Assembly (NCBI RefSeq): GCF_000002985.6
Contig: NC_003280.10
Location: forward strand, 11,218,501-11,282,500
DNA from: Caenorhabditis elegans
Lineage: Eukaryota > Nematoda > Chromadorea > Rhabditida > Rhabditidae
Direction of reading: 5' to 3'
DNA: 64,000 bases
The notes under the pieces are model-generated. The model saw nothing but the letters and a program-made list of their open reading frames with translations. It was not told where the DNA came from and ran no database searches. How positions within the stretch are numbered: the first letter of the stretch is position 1; each line of letters begins with the position of its first letter. A program made the translations under genes and the position numbers. Shown piece by piece: positions 21,218 to 30,986 of this stretch.

Positions 21218-22323
21218 ATGATCTCTCGATTTACAACGAGTTTCCTTTTATGGATGCTTCTGGTGTTCACAGTGGTATTCTTCGAAACTTCTGGTAAGTT
21301 TTTCTTTTGATTATTTGTTTCAATAATACAAATGAATTTCAGCGGCCTCTGACAAAGTTCTTCTTCGCGATGTATCAGCAATTACTCTACACAAAGGAAA
21401 AATGACGACAGGACGACGAGTTTCTCCAACCTTCCAGTTGAAGTGTGTCGGTGGATCCGCGAAAGGTGCCTTCACCCCAAAGGTGGTTCAGTGTGCAAAT
21501 CAAGGTTTTGATGGTTCGGATGTGCAGTGGAGATGTGATGCAGATTTGCCACATGATATGGAATTCGGATCCGTTAGTTTTTTAAATATTTCCATCTCGC
21601 TTCAAAAAATGTTTCTTGTTTCAGATCAGTGTTTCATGTGAAGGATACGATTACGCAGAGGATCCATACATCCTGAGAGGATCTTGCGGGTTGGAGTATG
21701 AGCTCGAGTACAATTCTGCGAGCGGTAACAGATCAGTTTCTCGAAAGTCATCCCAGGATCGATGGGATCAGTTCGCCACGTTCGTCGTCGTCGCCTTCAT
21801 CGCCTACATTATCTACGCGATGTGGACTAACAGAAATCAGAACCCAGAAAGCTCTGGCTACACTTCTGGTGGATCAGGAGGTCCTGGAGGCCCAGGATCC
21901 GGCGGAGGAGGTGGTGGTCCAGGTGGTTATCCAAGTGCTCCTCCACCATATGACGACTACTCCAAGCCACCGCCATATGGGTTCCGTGGTGACTCGCAAT
22001 CTGGAGGTGGATGGTAAGGAATTTTAAATAAAAATGACCTTATTTTCATTAAAATTAAGTTTTTCAGTCAGGGAAGTTCTAGCGGAGGAGCAAGTGGCAG
22101 TGGCGCCAACAATGGTGGATCGTTTTGGACTGGAGCAAGTCTAGGAGCCATTGGAGGATACCTGGCATCCAGCTTCCTCAACAATAACAATGCCTACGCC
22201 CGTCCACGATACAACAGAGGATTCTTCCAAGACACAGGCTTCTCAAGTTCCGATTCCTGGTCATCACCTTCTACTTCATCAATGCGCTCAAGTTCTGGTT
22301 ACGGTGGCACCACGAGACGATAG
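21218..22323 (+). CDS. SARAF/TMEM66-like store-operated calcium entry regulator
   Basis: Four exons: 21218..21293, 21343..21572, 21625..22013 and 22068..22323, giving 316 residues. There is a signal peptide (about residues 1-25). The lumenal domain has conserved cysteines (QLKCVGG, VVQCANQG, VQWRCDADL, SVSCEGYDY, LRGSCGLEY). One membrane span follows (FATFVVVAFIAYIIYAMW), then a cytosolic Gly/Pro/Ser-rich tail. This is the SARAF arrangement; SARAF in the ER membrane turns off STIM/Orai calcium entry. The tail holds two PPPY motifs, which commonly bind WW domains of NEDD4-type ligases. The ATG directly follows a strong TTTTTTCAG acceptor, so the mRNA is probably SL1 trans-spliced. AATAAA at 22470-22475. 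I recall T06D8.9, unchecked. Confidence 0.92.
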
Positions 22324-22567
22324 TTTCCTTATTGAGATCCAAGAAGTACGGGTGCAAACAAAACTAGTTTTGCTTTTTCTTTGTCTTGTCCATCTTTTCG
22401 ATAAAATCGAATGTACATTAGCTAGTTTAAAAATCGTCGTTCCGTTTATTATCTGGCATTGCACTAACGAATAAAGTTATAATAATTGAAGGCGAAAAAC
22501 ATATGTACATGGTTGGGGACAAATAAATTAAAAATAATAATTAAGATCATAGGGCCCGATGTTTTTG

Positions 22568-25500
22568 TTACACCCTCTTCATGTAATCAGTACATTGGAT
22601 CATACAAGAAGTGTCCTTTGCAATGTCGGTCAAGAGATACTTGTGTGTCAGCTTTTCGCAGCTATCCACTTTTGTTGGATTACACGCAACACCTTCCAGA
22701 GTACAAGTACATGTTACACAAGGAGTCATATGTACAGAATCTCCCAATGCAATGATTTTACCATTCATTTCACAAGTTTCTGAAAAATTATTTATTAATT
22801 TAGGGTAAAAAAATATATTTTTGAAAAACTTACTTCTTTCCCTCCAAAGGGATAAGTCGACTTGTGGAATGTCTGTGCAAGGAACTTGAGCATTTCTAAA
22901 AGATATAAGTTATTATCTGTGCTCGGGGAATTACTGTGAGCCGGTTGTTTTCTAATTTTCTTTGACTTTTTATTTTGTAAAACTAGATTTTCTGTATTAT
23001 TTTCATTTTTCTTTCGTTTCAATCTAGTTTTTGACAGAATTATCCAAATGCTCAATTTTGTGCCAAGCATTCGCTATTTACCCGGCCTCCACACAGCTGT
23101 GCACAGCAAATTTTTATTCTATGCGAAAAAGTGTGCGCCTTTAAGGATTACTGTAGCTGTTAACTTGTGTTGTTGCAGAATTTTTCAGCTACCGTACTCG
23201 CAATTATTTCTGGATGTTTTATCTAGAAAAAAGAATACTTTTTCGCTAGAAAACCTTAAAATAAAAGCTGAAAAGTTTTTTTTTTTGGAATACTGACTCA
23301 CGCCGGTTTTTAAAAATGTTTACTAATTTTATTTGACTTTTTTCTCTTGTTAAACTAGATTTTCTGTATTCTTTTCATTTTTCATTTGTTTCAATTTAGT
23401 GTTTGGCAAAATATTATCCAAATTCTCAATTTTGCGCCAAAAATTCGCTACCCGGCCCCGACACAACACACTTTTATTCAATGCGAAAAGATGTGCGCCT
23501 TTAAGGATTACTGTAGCTGTTAACTTGTGTTGTTGCAGAATTGTTATCGATATTTCATGGTTTTTTCGCGATTTGTTGAATTTTATGTTTGTTTAATTGT
23601 TTTACTTTAGTTTTTTCAATAAAAAAAAAGAATATAAATACAATTTTATCGAAAAACTACAAAAAATCGATAAAAATTCCGCAACAACAGAAGCTGGGAC
23701 CATGATCACGTGTCAAAATCCAAATTTTTTCAGATTTTTCAGGAAAAAAACTCACGTTAACTCATCAGTGACATCAAACACATTCGGCTGAATTGTCTTC
23801 AAGTACTTGCTGTTCGAGCAGAAGATTGATGCAAGCTTCACCTTCCGAATCTCATTCAACTGTCCTGGTGTGAACTTTGCCGCGCTGTTATCATTCTCAT
23901 AGTAGAATCGATCGCACTTTTTCAGCCTTCCAAACTGCTCAGCAATGATACAAGACATTGTTGTTCCCAGGAGAGCACCACGCAGTGGTCGTTCACTAAC
24001 CAATCCTGGGAATAGGTCAACATCATCGACAGACTCATAAAGTGATTGCAGAATATTGATGTTATCCTGATCCATTTCTCCTTTCAGATCATCCCATTTA
24101 ACTGCTCTTCGGAGCCCACAGAACTCTCTCAGATCGTTGTAAGGTTGAACTCCGTGATCTCTGGCTCTTAGAATATTCAACACAATCAGATCCATTCCAC
24201 TGGTCTTCTCGCCTCTTCTCATGAACAAATGATTTCTAACCGCGTCAGTAATATGTCTATCGAATGCCATTGATGGTGTTCCGAGCAATCCCATCAACAT
24301 CGAATCCATACCTCCTTTCTCTTGCTCGTACAAAGGCCCGACGTGTCCAAAGTGCTGGGCGAGATCCACAGGCTCACTCATATTCTTATAGTTGTAGTTC
24401 ATACGTGGGAACATTCTTCGGATCAAGGTATGTCCGAATCGGAATGCTGCAGTGGCAAATGGCTGTGAGATTGAAGCATCGCAGGTGTTATCGTACCCTC
24501 CAAAGTATCCATTTTTCTTGGGTACCAGGTTTTGGGCATTGAGAAGGTCTAGGCCTATAATTTTTGGAAGGAATTCAGCAAAAGTGATGTGTTGCATTTC
24601 AGCAGTCACAATACGACGAGCTTCCTCGAATACGGTGTCATCATTCCATTGTGGATTCAGAGCAGATAGTTGCATAGCAATTCTATTATGTTCTCTGACA
24701 AAGAATGTGTGCATAATAGTGAGTCCTGGTTGATGAGAATTACGTTCATCTCCTGCAACAAAGCATGGCATATGCCTCTTCTCAAGTGTCGACCTGCAGT
24801 CTTTTTCTTGATTTCCCTGCGGCAACATCATTTGACCATGTCCAAAGTCCGTAAAGTTCAAGAGTCCACGTGTGAATAATCTCAGATTCTTGGCTTCACA
24901 CTTTGTTGATCCATAAATCGCTGAACCATCAACATAGGCTGTCAGTTGATTCAGTTGATTACGGTATCCGAGATTGAGTTGTCCGAGAAGAGATCGGGCA
25001 AACGGAAGGCATCTAGGTTCTCCATTCGGGTAGTTGGTTGGGAAGAATGGATCGTCCTTTTCCACTCGTATAGGCATGCAATGAACTGAAATCTTTTCCG
25101 GTGAATCACACTTTGTGCAATTCAGAATTTCATCATTAGGCCCACGTGCCACTGGAGAATGGGTCAGCTCATGGTCTAGAAGCTGTCCAAACTGCATTAC
25201 CATATGAGTGAACTTTACATGAGATACATCCTTATCCTCGCATACCAAATTCGAAACTCTACGTGGATTTGGAAGTGGTCTTCCAGATTTTGCGCGGGTC
25301 CTTGGTGCATCGAATCCGTCGTCATATTGTGGTGGAAGAAGATGTCGAAGTGGGGCAAAGGAGTTGGCATATTCTGGGAACTTCAAATTGTTGCACCATC
25401 CGTTGAAGGTACGATAGCGAGTTGTATGATCACATGGAAGCATCTTTGGGCTGCATTCTTCTTGACTGGATTGTCCATCCTCTGATAAGAAAGCTGTATA

Positions 25501-28500
25501 GTTATTGACAAATGAGGTGACATCAATATCAGGAAGGATCTTCTGAAGTGTATGTGTATCCAATTTTGGTAGTTGCTCATCCGTATCTAATCCTTCTCCC
25601 TTTATCAAAAGCTTCGTAGTTTCTAATAGAAGCGCAGAGATTTGCGAGACTTGCTTAGCGCCTTCCTTTGCTCTCATCATATTTGAATATGCGAAAAGTG
25701 GATCTCCTTTCACAAATCTTCCTTGGTTATGCTTCAAATTCGATATTTCTCTACGTTCCTGGTCTTTGAGATTGCGTTTAGCCAGACTGATAACTTTCTC
25801 GATGGTTTCCTGTCGAATCGGGAACACTGGCTTTCCTTCGGCATCCCTCCATTCATTGAAGTCAGGACTGTTCAAGACTGTGGAATTGCAGGAGATTGCC
25901 ATGTTGCTGAAAATATAATGATGCTTTCGTTGTTTTTAAAGTACATTCGGATTAGGTTTTTTCTTCATTGGATTATATCTGGGATGCAGGATTAAACACT
26001 CTATCCTACCCTACGCTACGCTAAAGACCAACTAAAGTAAAACTTAATCTCTATCGAGAATTAGAAAGTATTCAGGATCTTAAACGCAGCTGGAAGGGAT
26101 TTAACAAACAAAAAAAATTAAAATTTAAGCGAAAACTTACTCGAAAACGTCCTCTCTGAAGAATACATTCCGTTGAATTCTACGAATATCAATATTGGAG
26201 CAAATGATCTCAGCTAGCTTGGTATTTCTGATTTCAGAAAGCTGAGCCTCATTGAATCCCGATTGAGCAAAATAGTTCTCATACCAAAAACGATCAGCTC
26301 TTCTTGTCTGTAATTCTAATTGTTCTCTAAAATACTGAATCGAACTTTTACCCTTTGCATTTGTTTTCCGATAATGCATGCCATAGTTGGTCCAACGAGT
26401 GATCCCTTCAGTGGCTTTTCAGCAAGAACACCTACTAGAAGATCAACGTCTTCAACTCGAGTATAGGCAGATGAAACTTGCTCAAATTTGACTTCAGGAA
26501 GGAAAATTTCACGGAGGTCGTTGAAAGAGGCAATCTTCAAAAATATATAATTGTCTTTAAAATTGAACTAATGAGATCAACTTACTCTTCCAAGCCCACA
26601 ACTAGCTCTCAAAGCAGTGTATCCAGGAATTCCATGATCTCTTCCCTGTTTCAATGCAATCGATATCAAGTCTAATCCGAACTCATGGTTGTCTTTTAAG
26701 AATCCACTCTTGACTTCATCATTGGCTCTTAGCGTTGGCTGATAGATATTTGTATTCAAAACCTGCCGAATAATCTGTACTGGACCTTGTTCATAGAGTC
26801 TTGATGGATTATTGAAATCAACGAAAGATTTTTCAGAGGGGAGAAGTGCCCAGAAATAGTATGTAATCGTTACAGCAAACTCATTGAAAGTAGTTCCTTC
26901 CAAATTCATTTCATAATTCGAATCAAATCCAGCAGAGTGAAGGTTCAATCCATAGTTTCTCATGTTCTCCCTTCCCAGCAGAACCGGTAAAAACTCATTG
27001 TAAGTGATATGTTGTACTTGAGCAGCCACGATTTTTCTCGCCTCCTCGTAAAGTTTGTCGTCGGTCCAATGACGATTGATAGATCTTAAGTTGTCAGCAA
27101 TTCTGTTGTGGTGTCGAATGAAAACTGTGTGAAGGGCGGCTACACTCGGAAGGATGTTGACTTCATCAGTTCCAGATAAAGCACATCGAGAATGGGTAGC
27201 CTGACATTGAAGTGTTCCGTCTGTAGCCGGGAGCTCTCCGATGCTTCCAGCGGTTCGGAGTTGACCTAGAAAATACGGTGTATAGTTATCACAATCACAA
27301 AGCTCCGCAAATAAGGAACGAATTGGCAGCAAACAGGCAGGTTTGACAAATGCAATAGCGGCTACGTATATTTATTTTGAAACATATCGAGATCACGTAT
27401 TTTATAACCAATTTAACTACCCTTTCCTCAAATCACCACTGACTAACCATTACGGAATGTTCTCAATTGTTTCGCTTTTTCCATGTTGGATCCATAAATG
27501 AATGAAGCATCAAGATAAGAAGATGCAAAATTTGCTTGTTCTCTTGGCCCCAGCCGACATGCCTCGCGTGGAGCGATTATCGATCGTGCGTGAGGGATAC
27601 AGTTCAGTCTAGTTCTGAAACACGCGATGTCTGATCTTATGTTTTTTCTTGCATCGTGTTGCGTTGTGATCTCTTACATACCTGTATGCTGGATCAGCAG
27701 CTGGTATGTCAATGGCATCACATTCAGAGTGATTAAATCCTCGTTTGCAACATGGCAATGCAGATGAGGTGCCCTCGTTGACGGCTTGGAATGGGACAAT
27801 GTTGACCATGTCAGAAGCGATCAACTGCATCCAGAGGCCCATCATAGTAGTTACATCAGAATGAACCTAGAAATGAAATAGTGAACTTAGCAACTCAAAA
27901 ATCCGAACCTCTCCTCGTGGTGTGAAAATTGTCAATGACAAGCTTCGTACTGATGGCAGAGGTTTGCTGGCTGCAGCAGCTCTAGGTTCAGACACCCCAT
28001 CAGCATAATCCGGTCTTACGATTCTTGCCATCGGCGTGTGTGATGCTCCCCATTCCGGACGCGCAACATTGTTGCAAATGCCAGAAAATGATCTGAAAAC
28101 GAAAGTGAATTAGGAGAGATGATTTGAGACATCGATGAAGGAAACAAAAAACTGAGGGGTAGAAAAGTGAAGGGGACGAAAAACTGGATTTATCGTCTCA
28201 TTTTCTTTTTCCGAAAGCGAAATAAGATTACGCAATGGAAAGGGAAAATGCTTCGCTGGACACTGCTGGACACCCATGACTAATGCGTACCGGTAATTGG
28301 TGGCAAAGCAATGATCGATTGTTGGAATTGGGCAGTTGGAGATTGTTGAGGAAATTTGGTTCGGTGGGATGCCGTACTTTAGCTCTCGTTCGCGGAGTCC
28401 TAGTCTAAAAGTTTTAAGATTTATGAGGTTTTGGTACATACCAAATATTATCAATACTCACGCTGTCAATCTCTTGGTGATTGCCAAGGAAGTAAATGCA

Positions 28501-29006
28501 GATCTGCTACGATCTGAGGCCTTCTTGTCTGCTTTATGAATTCTCGTAAACTGAGAAGTAGAAGTTGACAACGGGTGCCCAGAGTACTGGAATGCCACGT
28601 CACGGAAATCGAAGAGCTTTGTAGACTCTCGTTCTCCTTCCTTGGCGGCCACAAATAGAAGACCATCAGGGACTCGATGTGAGACGAATGGAGCTGAAGC
28701 GATAAGGGGACTAGAATGATAACGGGGCTCGCACAAAGATTTATTTTGGTGACCTCATTCGCGGTTATGCATCGTTAGTTCTTACATAATATGGAATTAG
28801 GTCAAAGTTACCGAAACGAAAGATCAAATGGACTGGAAACAAACAAAGATCAGAATATGGTTTAGCTTACCGTCATCAATACTCAATCCTTGTTGATGGT
28901 TGAGTATGTCATTCTCGCAAGGAATAAAAGATTTTCCGCACGGAATATTCGATGCATGGCTCGTGGCGAAGGCGAACACTAATAGGTAGAGTCCATGCCG
29001 TCTCAT
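22568..29006 (-). CDS. Tandem double animal haem peroxidase, secreted
   Basis: Twelve exons join in phase: 28871..29006, 28462..28693, 28291..28404, 27909..28092, 27682..27866, 27448..27614, 26586..27265, 26352..26534, 26141..26307, 23756..25906, 22834..22895 and 22568..22779, giving 1490 residues. There is a signal peptide (residues 1-18), then two peroxidase domains and a C-terminal VWC-like cysteine segment (CVTCTC). Domain 2 is complete: distal His in [12 protein letters not shown], Arg in VREHNRIA, proximal His in FRFGHTLI, and the calcium-site region after it. Domain 1 keeps RSFSGICNN and IRHHNRIA. However, the distal site reads MQLIASDM and the proximal site TYYFWALL, so both histidines are gone. 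Worm peroxidases cross-link cuticle or matrix proteins, or act in immunity; the substrate here is unknown. An ORF starting at 25902 could be mistaken for a separate gene, but the phases join across. Confidence 0.93.
22962..23541. repeat. Direct duplication of about 210 bp in peroxidase intron
   Basis: Two direct copies, about 22962-23178 and 23334-23541, share AACTAGATTTTCTGTATT, TTATCCAAAT, ATTCGCTA, GTGCGCCTTTAAGGATTACT and GTTAACTTGTGTTGTTGCAG. Each includes a half of the TCTCG-type palindrome family. They lie in the 860-bp intron between exons 10 and 11. Confidence 0.75.
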
Positions 29007-30986
29007 GGCTTCTTCTTGTTGAATGGCAAAATAAAGATACTACACGCGGAAAGCGAAACCTATGGCAAATGTGACATAGGGCAGAAAAAGCAGTGAAGAA
29101 GTCAGTTGAGAAGAGGGGGGAGAAGTCTATACAGTCAGTTGGGGGCTATTGGGGCGGAGAGAAACTGACGCATATTGCATAACACCGTGACAGTACCTCA
29201 GATAAAGAGATGACCAGAACCGGATTGAATTGGCTGGAAGAGTGTGGACGAGAAAGTGAGGAAAGAGAGACGGACACGAAGGACAACGCGGAAAAAAAAG
29301 TAGCTGAGGAGGCGATAGGGGATGGAAAAAAGACAAACGAAAAAAGGCGTCCGAAGGTTTTGATCGTTGAAAGTTCGACGTCAGTTTATCTTTTTTTTGG
29401 ACACAAGCATGCGGAGAGGGCAACCCGTTTCTTCTTTTTGTTTTGAATGTGCGGGGGTGATTCGAATTATGATTGAAGTTGGAATTCTACCGGAGAGAGG
29501 CAAAAGCCTATCCAGCAGGAACTGGAACAAAACGAGAGGTAATTAGAGAGGAAGTGGTGGTCAGAAAGAGAGAAAGAGGGAGAATGAAGCAGGTTCAGAT
29601 CAGCGTGTTGTGGAGGTTTTGAACTGGGGTGAACACGAGTTGAGGAACGGATTCTCAAGTGCTTCAGGATTTTTTTCGGCTTAGGATAGATAGACTGGGT
29701 AGAATCACGTTGAAATAAGCAAAAATTATTCTTGTTTTTGGGAACTGAAGGTAGTTTGACAAGTGGTAAAATTTGCATATATCCTTACAGGTGCTTCAAA
29801 TCTGTAAAATTTTGAAATCCAGAAAAACTCAAAAAGTCGAAGCTGTGCTTTAGGAAATGCAGACATTGGATCAAGAATGTTTGAGAACCAAATTCGCCTT
29901 CCTCGAGTTCTGGCTAATTTTGGAAACTTTCTAATAAAATTTGTAAACTGTAGGGAACTTTCTTGCGTAGTATGAAATTTGGTGAAAACCTCTTCAATAA
30001 GTTGTAACTGTATTGCCCAGATGTATTTCCAGTAGGCTTCAAGCAGGCACGTGGGCCTGAAAAGGCTAGAACAAGCTAGGGCCACGAGCATGTAGCAATG
30101 CAAATTTGGAAAATCTGAACATTTTTAGAGTGCTCTTAAATGATATTCAGTAAGGTTGATGTGAGTTGTGAATTCCCTAACATGTATAATTTTTAGAATC
30201 CTTCCACTAAAACTTCCTCCTTTAAGGTATTTCTCCTGAAAACTTTCAACTTCTTTTGTCACGTCGTGTTAATCTTCTGACGCACTTTGAATTGTCTTAC
30301 CCGAAAAGCAATCAGGTAGACTTTAATCGTCATAGTTCAATCTAGAATCTCCTTAACTCTTCTACGTCGCCTCGTATTTTCAATCTCCCTCTATAATTTT
30401 AGTGCAAATTTTCTCAAAACATTGACCAGTGACAAACATCCATATGATCCACTTGATGCCAATAAAACAAAAAAAAATCTAATGGCTCATCTCATGAGAT
30501 GTCTAGAATAACGGGGAAATAAATAAGAAATAATGTTTCCATGAGTCACGTATATTTCGAAAAAAGGTCGTTCAAAAATAAGTATGAAGTGTTCAGTCAG
30601 CTGACTTTCTGCAAAATAAGGAAGAAGAAAATAAGCTTTTTGTGTCTTTTTTTTTTGATTTTCAAAATATACGATTTTGGCAAAGAACACTCAGAAGTTT
30701 AGGAAAACGTTTTTCAATCAATTTACCAAGGCTAGGTAGCCTAGGAAAATCTTAGAATCCCTGTTTCCGTCCTCACTAGCCCTGAAAATTCTGTTGTGTT
30801 AATCCTAAAAAAGTATGTGACTTTTCCGGTTAGTCTGAAATTATTTTGGGTCAAGTTCCGCAGCATTTTCCTGAAAAAAAGCGGGAGGAAATTAAGAAAC
30901 CCGTGCCGATGACGACACACGAATTGGTCCGACGAAATTTGCAAGTGAATTAAATTTCCTGGAACAAGAAATAAACGTCATCATCG
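29007..30986. other. Upstream region of the peroxidase gene
   Basis: No exon chain was found. A purine-rich stretch lies at about 29,220-29,350 and again at 29,500-29,640 (GAGAGAAAGAGGG type). The rest is AT-rich. It spans from the peroxidase start to the 3' end of the cysteine-rich minus-strand gene, so it probably holds the peroxidase promoter. Confidence 0.45.

Follow-up and report, generated by a model that had tools for sequence, protein, structure and literature searches.

Why animals retain dead peroxidase domains is an open question, for which dual oxidase (DUOX) is the best-known case. The peroxidase homology domain of human DUOX1 lacks the haem His, shows no haem density and forms inter-subunit contacts, and mutants of its cation site do not assemble with DUOXA1 (PMC7794343), while the function of this domain was described as obscure in a 2015 review (PMC4420034). 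Proteins with two peroxidase domains are known from arthropods. In LsPxtl-1 of the salmon louse, reported in 2023, the first domain is without typical haem-binding features except for the retained distal A-H-D and the second domain has the features; InterPro, as the authors note, assigned haem sites to the first domain and none to the second, and knockdown of the gene led to death (PMC10579435). The lethality does not separate the roles of the two domains. The aphid DBLPX subfamily has the same two-domain layout with a C-terminal VWC (PMC11673278), and mosquito DBLOX, a double peroxidase, has been placed in immune priming (PMC13043729). In C. elegans, MLT-7 has a part in the cuticle alongside BLI-3, and pathogen resistance involves SKPO-1 and HPX-2 (PMC6368334).

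A tandem peroxidase gene was analysed within a window of 64,000 nucleotides of C. elegans DNA, corresponding to positions 11218501-11282500 of contig C2, chromosome II, in the 100.29-Mb genome. The gene, at 22568..29006 of the window, is presumably T06D8.10. As in the peroxidase homology domain of DUOX, the haem His is missing from the first domain (D1) of the T06D8.10 protein; the NADPH-oxidase part of DUOX is absent from it (Pfam, E up to 0.01). The arthropod double peroxidases of the LsPxtl-1 and aphid DBLPX type have in common with the worm protein two peroxidase domains per chain, and their rows fall within the D1 and D2 clades of the worm domains. They differ in that the haem site is gone on both sides in nematode D1, together with the catalytic Arg in 45 of 56 rows, and in that the linkers of the T06-like nematodes are without a furin-type motif. 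Anopheles DBLOX (AGAP008350) is likewise described as a double peroxidase, and no listed row carries a mosquito name. With a dead domain placed beside a live sister in one chain of a genetic model animal, the question of why such domains are retained becomes testable.

Gene model and domain organization

The exon model was assembled manually, using open frames and splice sites. On the minus strand it begins with ATG at 29006 and ends with a stop codon at 22568, in exact agreement with the limits given in the preliminary description, and consists of 12 exons, all introns being GT..AG, with a product of 1490 aa. The C. briggsae protein P0001 is 95% identical to this product over its full length. 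The features of the gene are as follows.

22568..29006, minus strand: coding region
29006-28871, 28693-28462, 28404-28291, 28092-27909, minus strand: exons 1-4
27866-27682, 27614-27448, 27265-26586, 26534-26352, minus strand: exons 5-8
26307-26141, 25906-23756, 22895-22834, 22779-22568, minus strand: exons 9-12
28950..29006, minus strand: putative signal peptide, about aa 1-19, a hydrophobic N-terminus read by eye
26161..28295, minus strand: D1, aa 160-676, animal haem peroxidase fold with lost haem site
23776..25416, minus strand: domain 2 (D2), aa 847-1393, animal haem peroxidase with intact catalytic residues
22649..22774, minus strand: VWC-like Cys-rich stretch, aa 1423-1464, inside a longer Cys-rich C-terminal tail

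PF03098, present once in each half, was the sole Pfam family found in the two halves of the protein at E up to 0.01, with scores of 525.4 bits for D1 and 637.4 bits for D2 against a curated cut-off of 25, and the D2 stretch was matched at 638.8 bits in a profile search of the genome. No Pfam family was found in the N-terminal 155 aa at E up to 10. The C-terminal tail scored 22.3 bits (E 0.00016) against PF00093 (VWC), below the curated cut-off of 27.6, and its nine Cys columns are nearly invariant across 85 sequences. Peroxidasin likewise has an animal peroxidase domain; its VWC stands at the C-terminus, as does the VWC-like stretch here, and LRR and Ig domains precede its peroxidase. LRR and Ig were not found by Pfam in the T06D8.10 protein. 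Peroxinectins are single-domain invertebrate peroxidases (family 3). The single-domain rows P0113, P0115, P0117 and P0120 share CC and APRxxC-type cysteines with D1, whereas D2 of the tandem family carries four cysteines of its own that are not seen in those single-domain rows.

Two further observations were made around the gene. The convergent neighbour at 21336-22323 on the plus strand consists of exons of a homologue of SARAF, a regulator of store-operated calcium entry (PF06682, 242.4 bits). Intron 10 includes an imperfect direct duplication at 22946-23545, with a spacing of about 360-374 bp and pieces 86-92% alike, together with inverted-repeat arms at 23524-23565 and 23652-23693, which gives it the look of a repeat element.

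The haem site is lost in D1 and intact in D2

After alignment with relatives, the following replacements were detected at the haem site of D1.

27813..27818, minus strand: A239-S240 in place of the distal Asp-His
27162..27164, minus strand: E374 in place of the catalytic Arg
26850..26861, minus strand: Y475-Y476-F477-W478 in place of the proximal R-F-G-H, which carries the haem ligand
26616..26618, minus strand: T556 in place of the conserved Asn

Within the third of these, the proximal Arg is replaced by Y475 and the haem-ligand His by W478. The catalytic Arg is the one that we take to be R239 of myeloperoxidase (MPO), in MPO residue numbering. The preliminary description had noted the Ala-Ser, the Trp and the fold landmarks, all of which stand, and had considered the Arg to be kept, which was not the case: its position is occupied by E374, and the Arg residues remaining in D1 belong to other motifs shared by most members of the family, including R390 in RHHN and R548 in RDHG. 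The site residues of D2 are all present (D927, H928, R1071, R1172, H1175 and N1273), as had been stated. At the level of residues, the sequence supports the earlier view of a pseudo-enzyme joined to an enzyme with an intact site, the activity of D2 being predicted.

The loss was compared with the remainder of the domain using D2-invariant positions (identical in at least 92% of 36 rows), of which those no more than 6 residues from one of the four catalytic residues were classed as near the site, the windows being the analyst's choice. D1 of T06D8.10 retains 9 of 23 such positions near the site and 78 of 101 elsewhere (Fisher p = 0.0007). The majority D1 of 12 nematodes keeps 10/23 near the site and 82/101 elsewhere, and that of 19 arthropods 13/23 and 86/101 (p 0.007). 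No contrast was observed for the majority D1 of four tardigrade proteins (16/23 and 83/101, p 0.25), and the priapulid D1 retains 22/23 and 88/101. The skeleton of the fold remains in D1, including the conserved cysteines, near-invariant motifs such as RDHG, and the Ca-loop Asp and Ser, which are kept in all 55 nematode rows with a letter; the predicted structure of D1 resembles the MPO fold. Judged from these alignments, the loss of the site in D1 is in excess of chance while the fold skeleton stays.

A splicing or annotation artefact was rejected, the site residues of D1 being located within exons and between conserved neighbours, in agreement with the predictions from many species. The introns inside the D1 coding part are 42 to 198 bp long, and a scan of the three minus-strand frames of 22500-29100 for the motifs DH[DE] or FGx[ST][LIVM] detected none besides those of D2 itself. 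Because the introns are short and no spare motif exists there, it is unlikely that alternative exons restore the site of D1.

Distribution of the dead domain among ecdysozoans

Relatives were collected by protein searches with query words from D1 or from the first 500 residues, taking the best 120 of 158, 2067 and 2281 matches. Since the queries were derived from D1, proteins without D1 would be missed, and the retention of D1 is overstated in the counts below. A total of 209 of the 230 listed proteins were included in an alignment of 210 rows, 21 proteins outside 1130-1800 aa being excluded, and rows were assigned to taxon groups by the names in the match lists. All site counts are for rows with a letter at the site, among the matches listed.

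In nematode D1 the distal Asp and the distal His are each found in 0/55 rows, the catalytic Arg in 11/56, the proximal His in 0/54 and the Asn in 7/56, with Caenorhabditis included. The comparison of orthologues that the preliminary description had called for therefore gives a dead D1 site in every nematode row with a letter there, and a decay that is recent or specific to Caenorhabditis was rejected. The corresponding counts for nematode D2 are 55/55, 55/55, 56/56, 54/56 and 54/54. In 53 of 54 nematode rows, the proximal position of D1 is occupied by F, W, Y or L.

The loss is graded outside the nematodes. Arthropod D1 has the distal Asp in 1/113 rows, the distal His in 74/113, the Arg in 82/82 (the column being gapped in 36 further rows, including moths and flies) and the proximal His in 3/117, while arthropod D2 has the distal His in 117/117 and the proximal His in 116/117. 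Based on the distal His and the Arg, some ligand chemistry may persist in arthropod D1. A His at the proximal column of D1 was found in P0112 (Planococcus), P0207, and P0087 and P0099 (moths); P0087 is without the distal His, and P0112 and P0207 have the distal His, the Arg and the proximal His but not the Asn. Among four tardigrade proteins of three species, D1 has the distal His in 2/4, the Arg in 4/4 and the proximal His in 3/4. The priapulid, represented by one predicted gene model, has the full residue set in both domains. Living species thus show intact, half-decayed and fully dead stages of D1. On the aligned sequences, the dead D1 is an ancient trait, reaching nearly all nematode and arthropod rows.

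The C. elegans genome has two more loci with two peroxidase domains, and both His of D1 are absent from each. Locus L009 (C4:7747500-7756500) has Tyr-Asp at the distal and Leu at the proximal position of D1, and locus L010 (C2:134500-141000) has Tyr-Asn and Lys, D2 being intact in both; in the L009-like protein P0224 of C. brenneri, the Arg of D1 is still present. These two genes, which we take to be C46A5.4 and K10B4.1, allow redundancy to be examined. No mention of T06D8.10, C46A5.4 or K10B4.1 was found in the literature searched, and a search covering part of the literature gave no account of the nematode-wide loss in D1, its graded character or the difference between linkers described below.

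A furin-type motif in the linker between the two domains

The linkers were scanned for the furin-type motif R-x-[KR]-R, leaving aside one nematode and one independent tandem, both with short linkers. Among the matches listed, the motif is present in 98 of 118 arthropod rows, for which 8.2 were expected from shuffles, and in 26 of 27 rows without a taxon name (2.6 expected). It was detected in 10/33 of the other nematodes (2.9 expected) and 1/4 tardigrade rows, and in neither the T06-like nematodes (0/22, 1.3 expected) nor the single priapulid row (0/1). The motifs cluster at three places rather than at a single one. The worm sequence at one of these places is as follows.

25666..25677, minus strand: RAKE in the linker, aa 760-763

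The furin-type motif stands there in 56 of 210 rows, nearly all non-nematode, such as the RPKR of spiders, mite, locust and centipede. For most arthropod rows the two halves are predicted to be cut apart, while those of T06D8.10 are predicted to stay joined.

Possible roles of D1

It is somewhat probable that D1, without haem-ligand and catalytic residues, serves as a haem-free structural partner that folds with D2 and positions it, D2 being the predicted working enzyme. Such a structural role is suggested by the predicted models and by the precedent of DUOX. D1 would fold with the intact D2 and hold it in place as a working enzyme, and in the T06-like nematodes, which have no furin-type motif, D1 and D2 in one chain would form a built-in pseudo-pair. 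Secretion and extracellular action are predicted for the protein from its conserved cysteines and likely signal peptide, and the dual oxidase BLI-3 is a possible source of H2O2 there. By analogy with MLT-7, SKPO-1 and HPX-2, the T06D8.10 protein may act in a similar cuticle or pathogen setting. Several points count on the other side. The model of the two domains has a pTM of 0.69, at which a fixed packing of D1 and D2, or a dimer-like arrangement of the kind raised in the preliminary description, is a candidate feature. D1 changes faster than D2 and is shortened in some members, and most arthropod D1 with a letter at the site retain the distal His and the Arg. The linker looks cleavable in most arthropod rows, which counts against a permanent pair as the function of the family as a whole.

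Alternatively, D1 may be a haem-free binding module for a substrate, matrix protein or cell-surface receptor, which it would present to D2; we regard this as unlikely. Cell-adhesion functions have been shown for peroxinectins (PMC4420034). The T06D8.10 protein is itself likely secreted with a VWC-like tail, and it carries, as candidates for the integrin-binding KGD-type motif of peroxinectins, KGD at 749 and KGE at 785 and 1291; all three, however, fall outside D1. The bulky proximal residues of nematode D1 do not suggest an open ligand pocket, and they agree better with a filled pocket and a structural role than with substrate binding, a use of D1 that the preliminary description had proposed and for which nothing was found in support. 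It is quite unlikely that D1 instead mainly assists the folding of D2 or serves as its pro-domain and becomes dispensable once the protein is secreted, being cleaved off in arthropods at the furin-type motifs. The excess of R-x-[KR]-R in arthropod linkers and in the rows without a taxon name is what such a role predicts, but the motifs are spread over several places of the linker, and they are missing from all the T06-like and most of the other nematode rows, so that this would not be the role in T06D8.10 unless another protease is used.

That D1 is a decaying passenger without function is very improbable, although several observations point in this direction. In C. briggsae, Necator, Heterodera and locust, D1 shows 94%, 64%, 46% and 39% identity to the worm domain, respectively (37-39% for arthropods), compared with 97%, 85%, 72% and 48% for D2. 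The loss of catalytic residues across D1 is irregular, D1 is shortened in L010 and in moth and beetle rows, and searches based on D1 are blind to proteins that have lost it. The faster change of D1 and its shortening in some members indicate that part of D1 is weakly constrained. Against a passenger stand the persistence of D1 in nematodes, arthropods and tardigrades, its identity of more than nine residues in ten with C. briggsae, and the conserved cysteines and near-invariant RDHG.

Origin of the tandem

A quick tree was constructed from 86 rows, representing 40 tandem proteins and 6 others, and a careful tree from 62 of those 86. In the careful tree, D1 of nematodes, tardigrades and arthropods forms one clade of 24 rows (support 100/98), and D2 forms another of 25 rows including the priapulid (100/100), from which the tandem is likely to have arisen once, before these phyla split. 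The D1 of Drosophila, a long branch, is located next to nematode D1 in this tree (82/49), contrary to the species tree. The quick tree places the priapulid D1 close to the D2 clade (support 82), and the placement of this domain is open in the careful tree: a position inside the D1 clade was not rejected by the AU test (p 0.417), and its union with D2 has a support of 54/42. The four cysteines of D2 are present in 36/36 D2 rows of the family and in no D1, and their absence from the priapulid D1 indicates that this domain was not copied recently from D2.

Since three of the four tardigrade D1 keep the proximal His and the priapulid keeps the whole site, decay of the D1 site from a working state is probable. 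Together with the tree, these priapulid and tardigrade sequences lead us to infer a single ancestral ecdysozoan tandem in which D1 was once active. On the view that arthropods are nearer to tardigrades than to nematodes, two or more losses of the proximal His of D1 are required. The tardigrades are the first branch of the D1 tree (92/80), an order that would allow a single shared loss plus one in Paramacrobiotus. As a tentative scenario, which is quite possible though short of probable, the ancestor had a chain of two enzymes, of which D1 became haem-free, with its ligand lost in parallel in nematodes, arthropods and one tardigrade, and D2 stayed a working enzyme; arthropods would then cut off D1 by a furin-type protease, the lineage of T06D8.10, without the cut sites, would keep it covalently attached as a permanent pseudo-partner, and the priapulid would represent the two-enzyme state.

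Four tandem proteins, namely P0188 and P0203 of the centipede Strigamia, P0222 of the ostracod Notodromas and P0223 of the crinoid Antedon, were rejected as relatives, their D1 pairing with their own D2 in the 86-row tree (P0203 being absent from the 62-row tree). They have both His in both domains and apparently represent separate duplications. The brittle star Amphiura filiformis has a protein of 2500 aa (P0211) with four QYLDHD and four RDHG motifs, suggesting four peroxidase domains.
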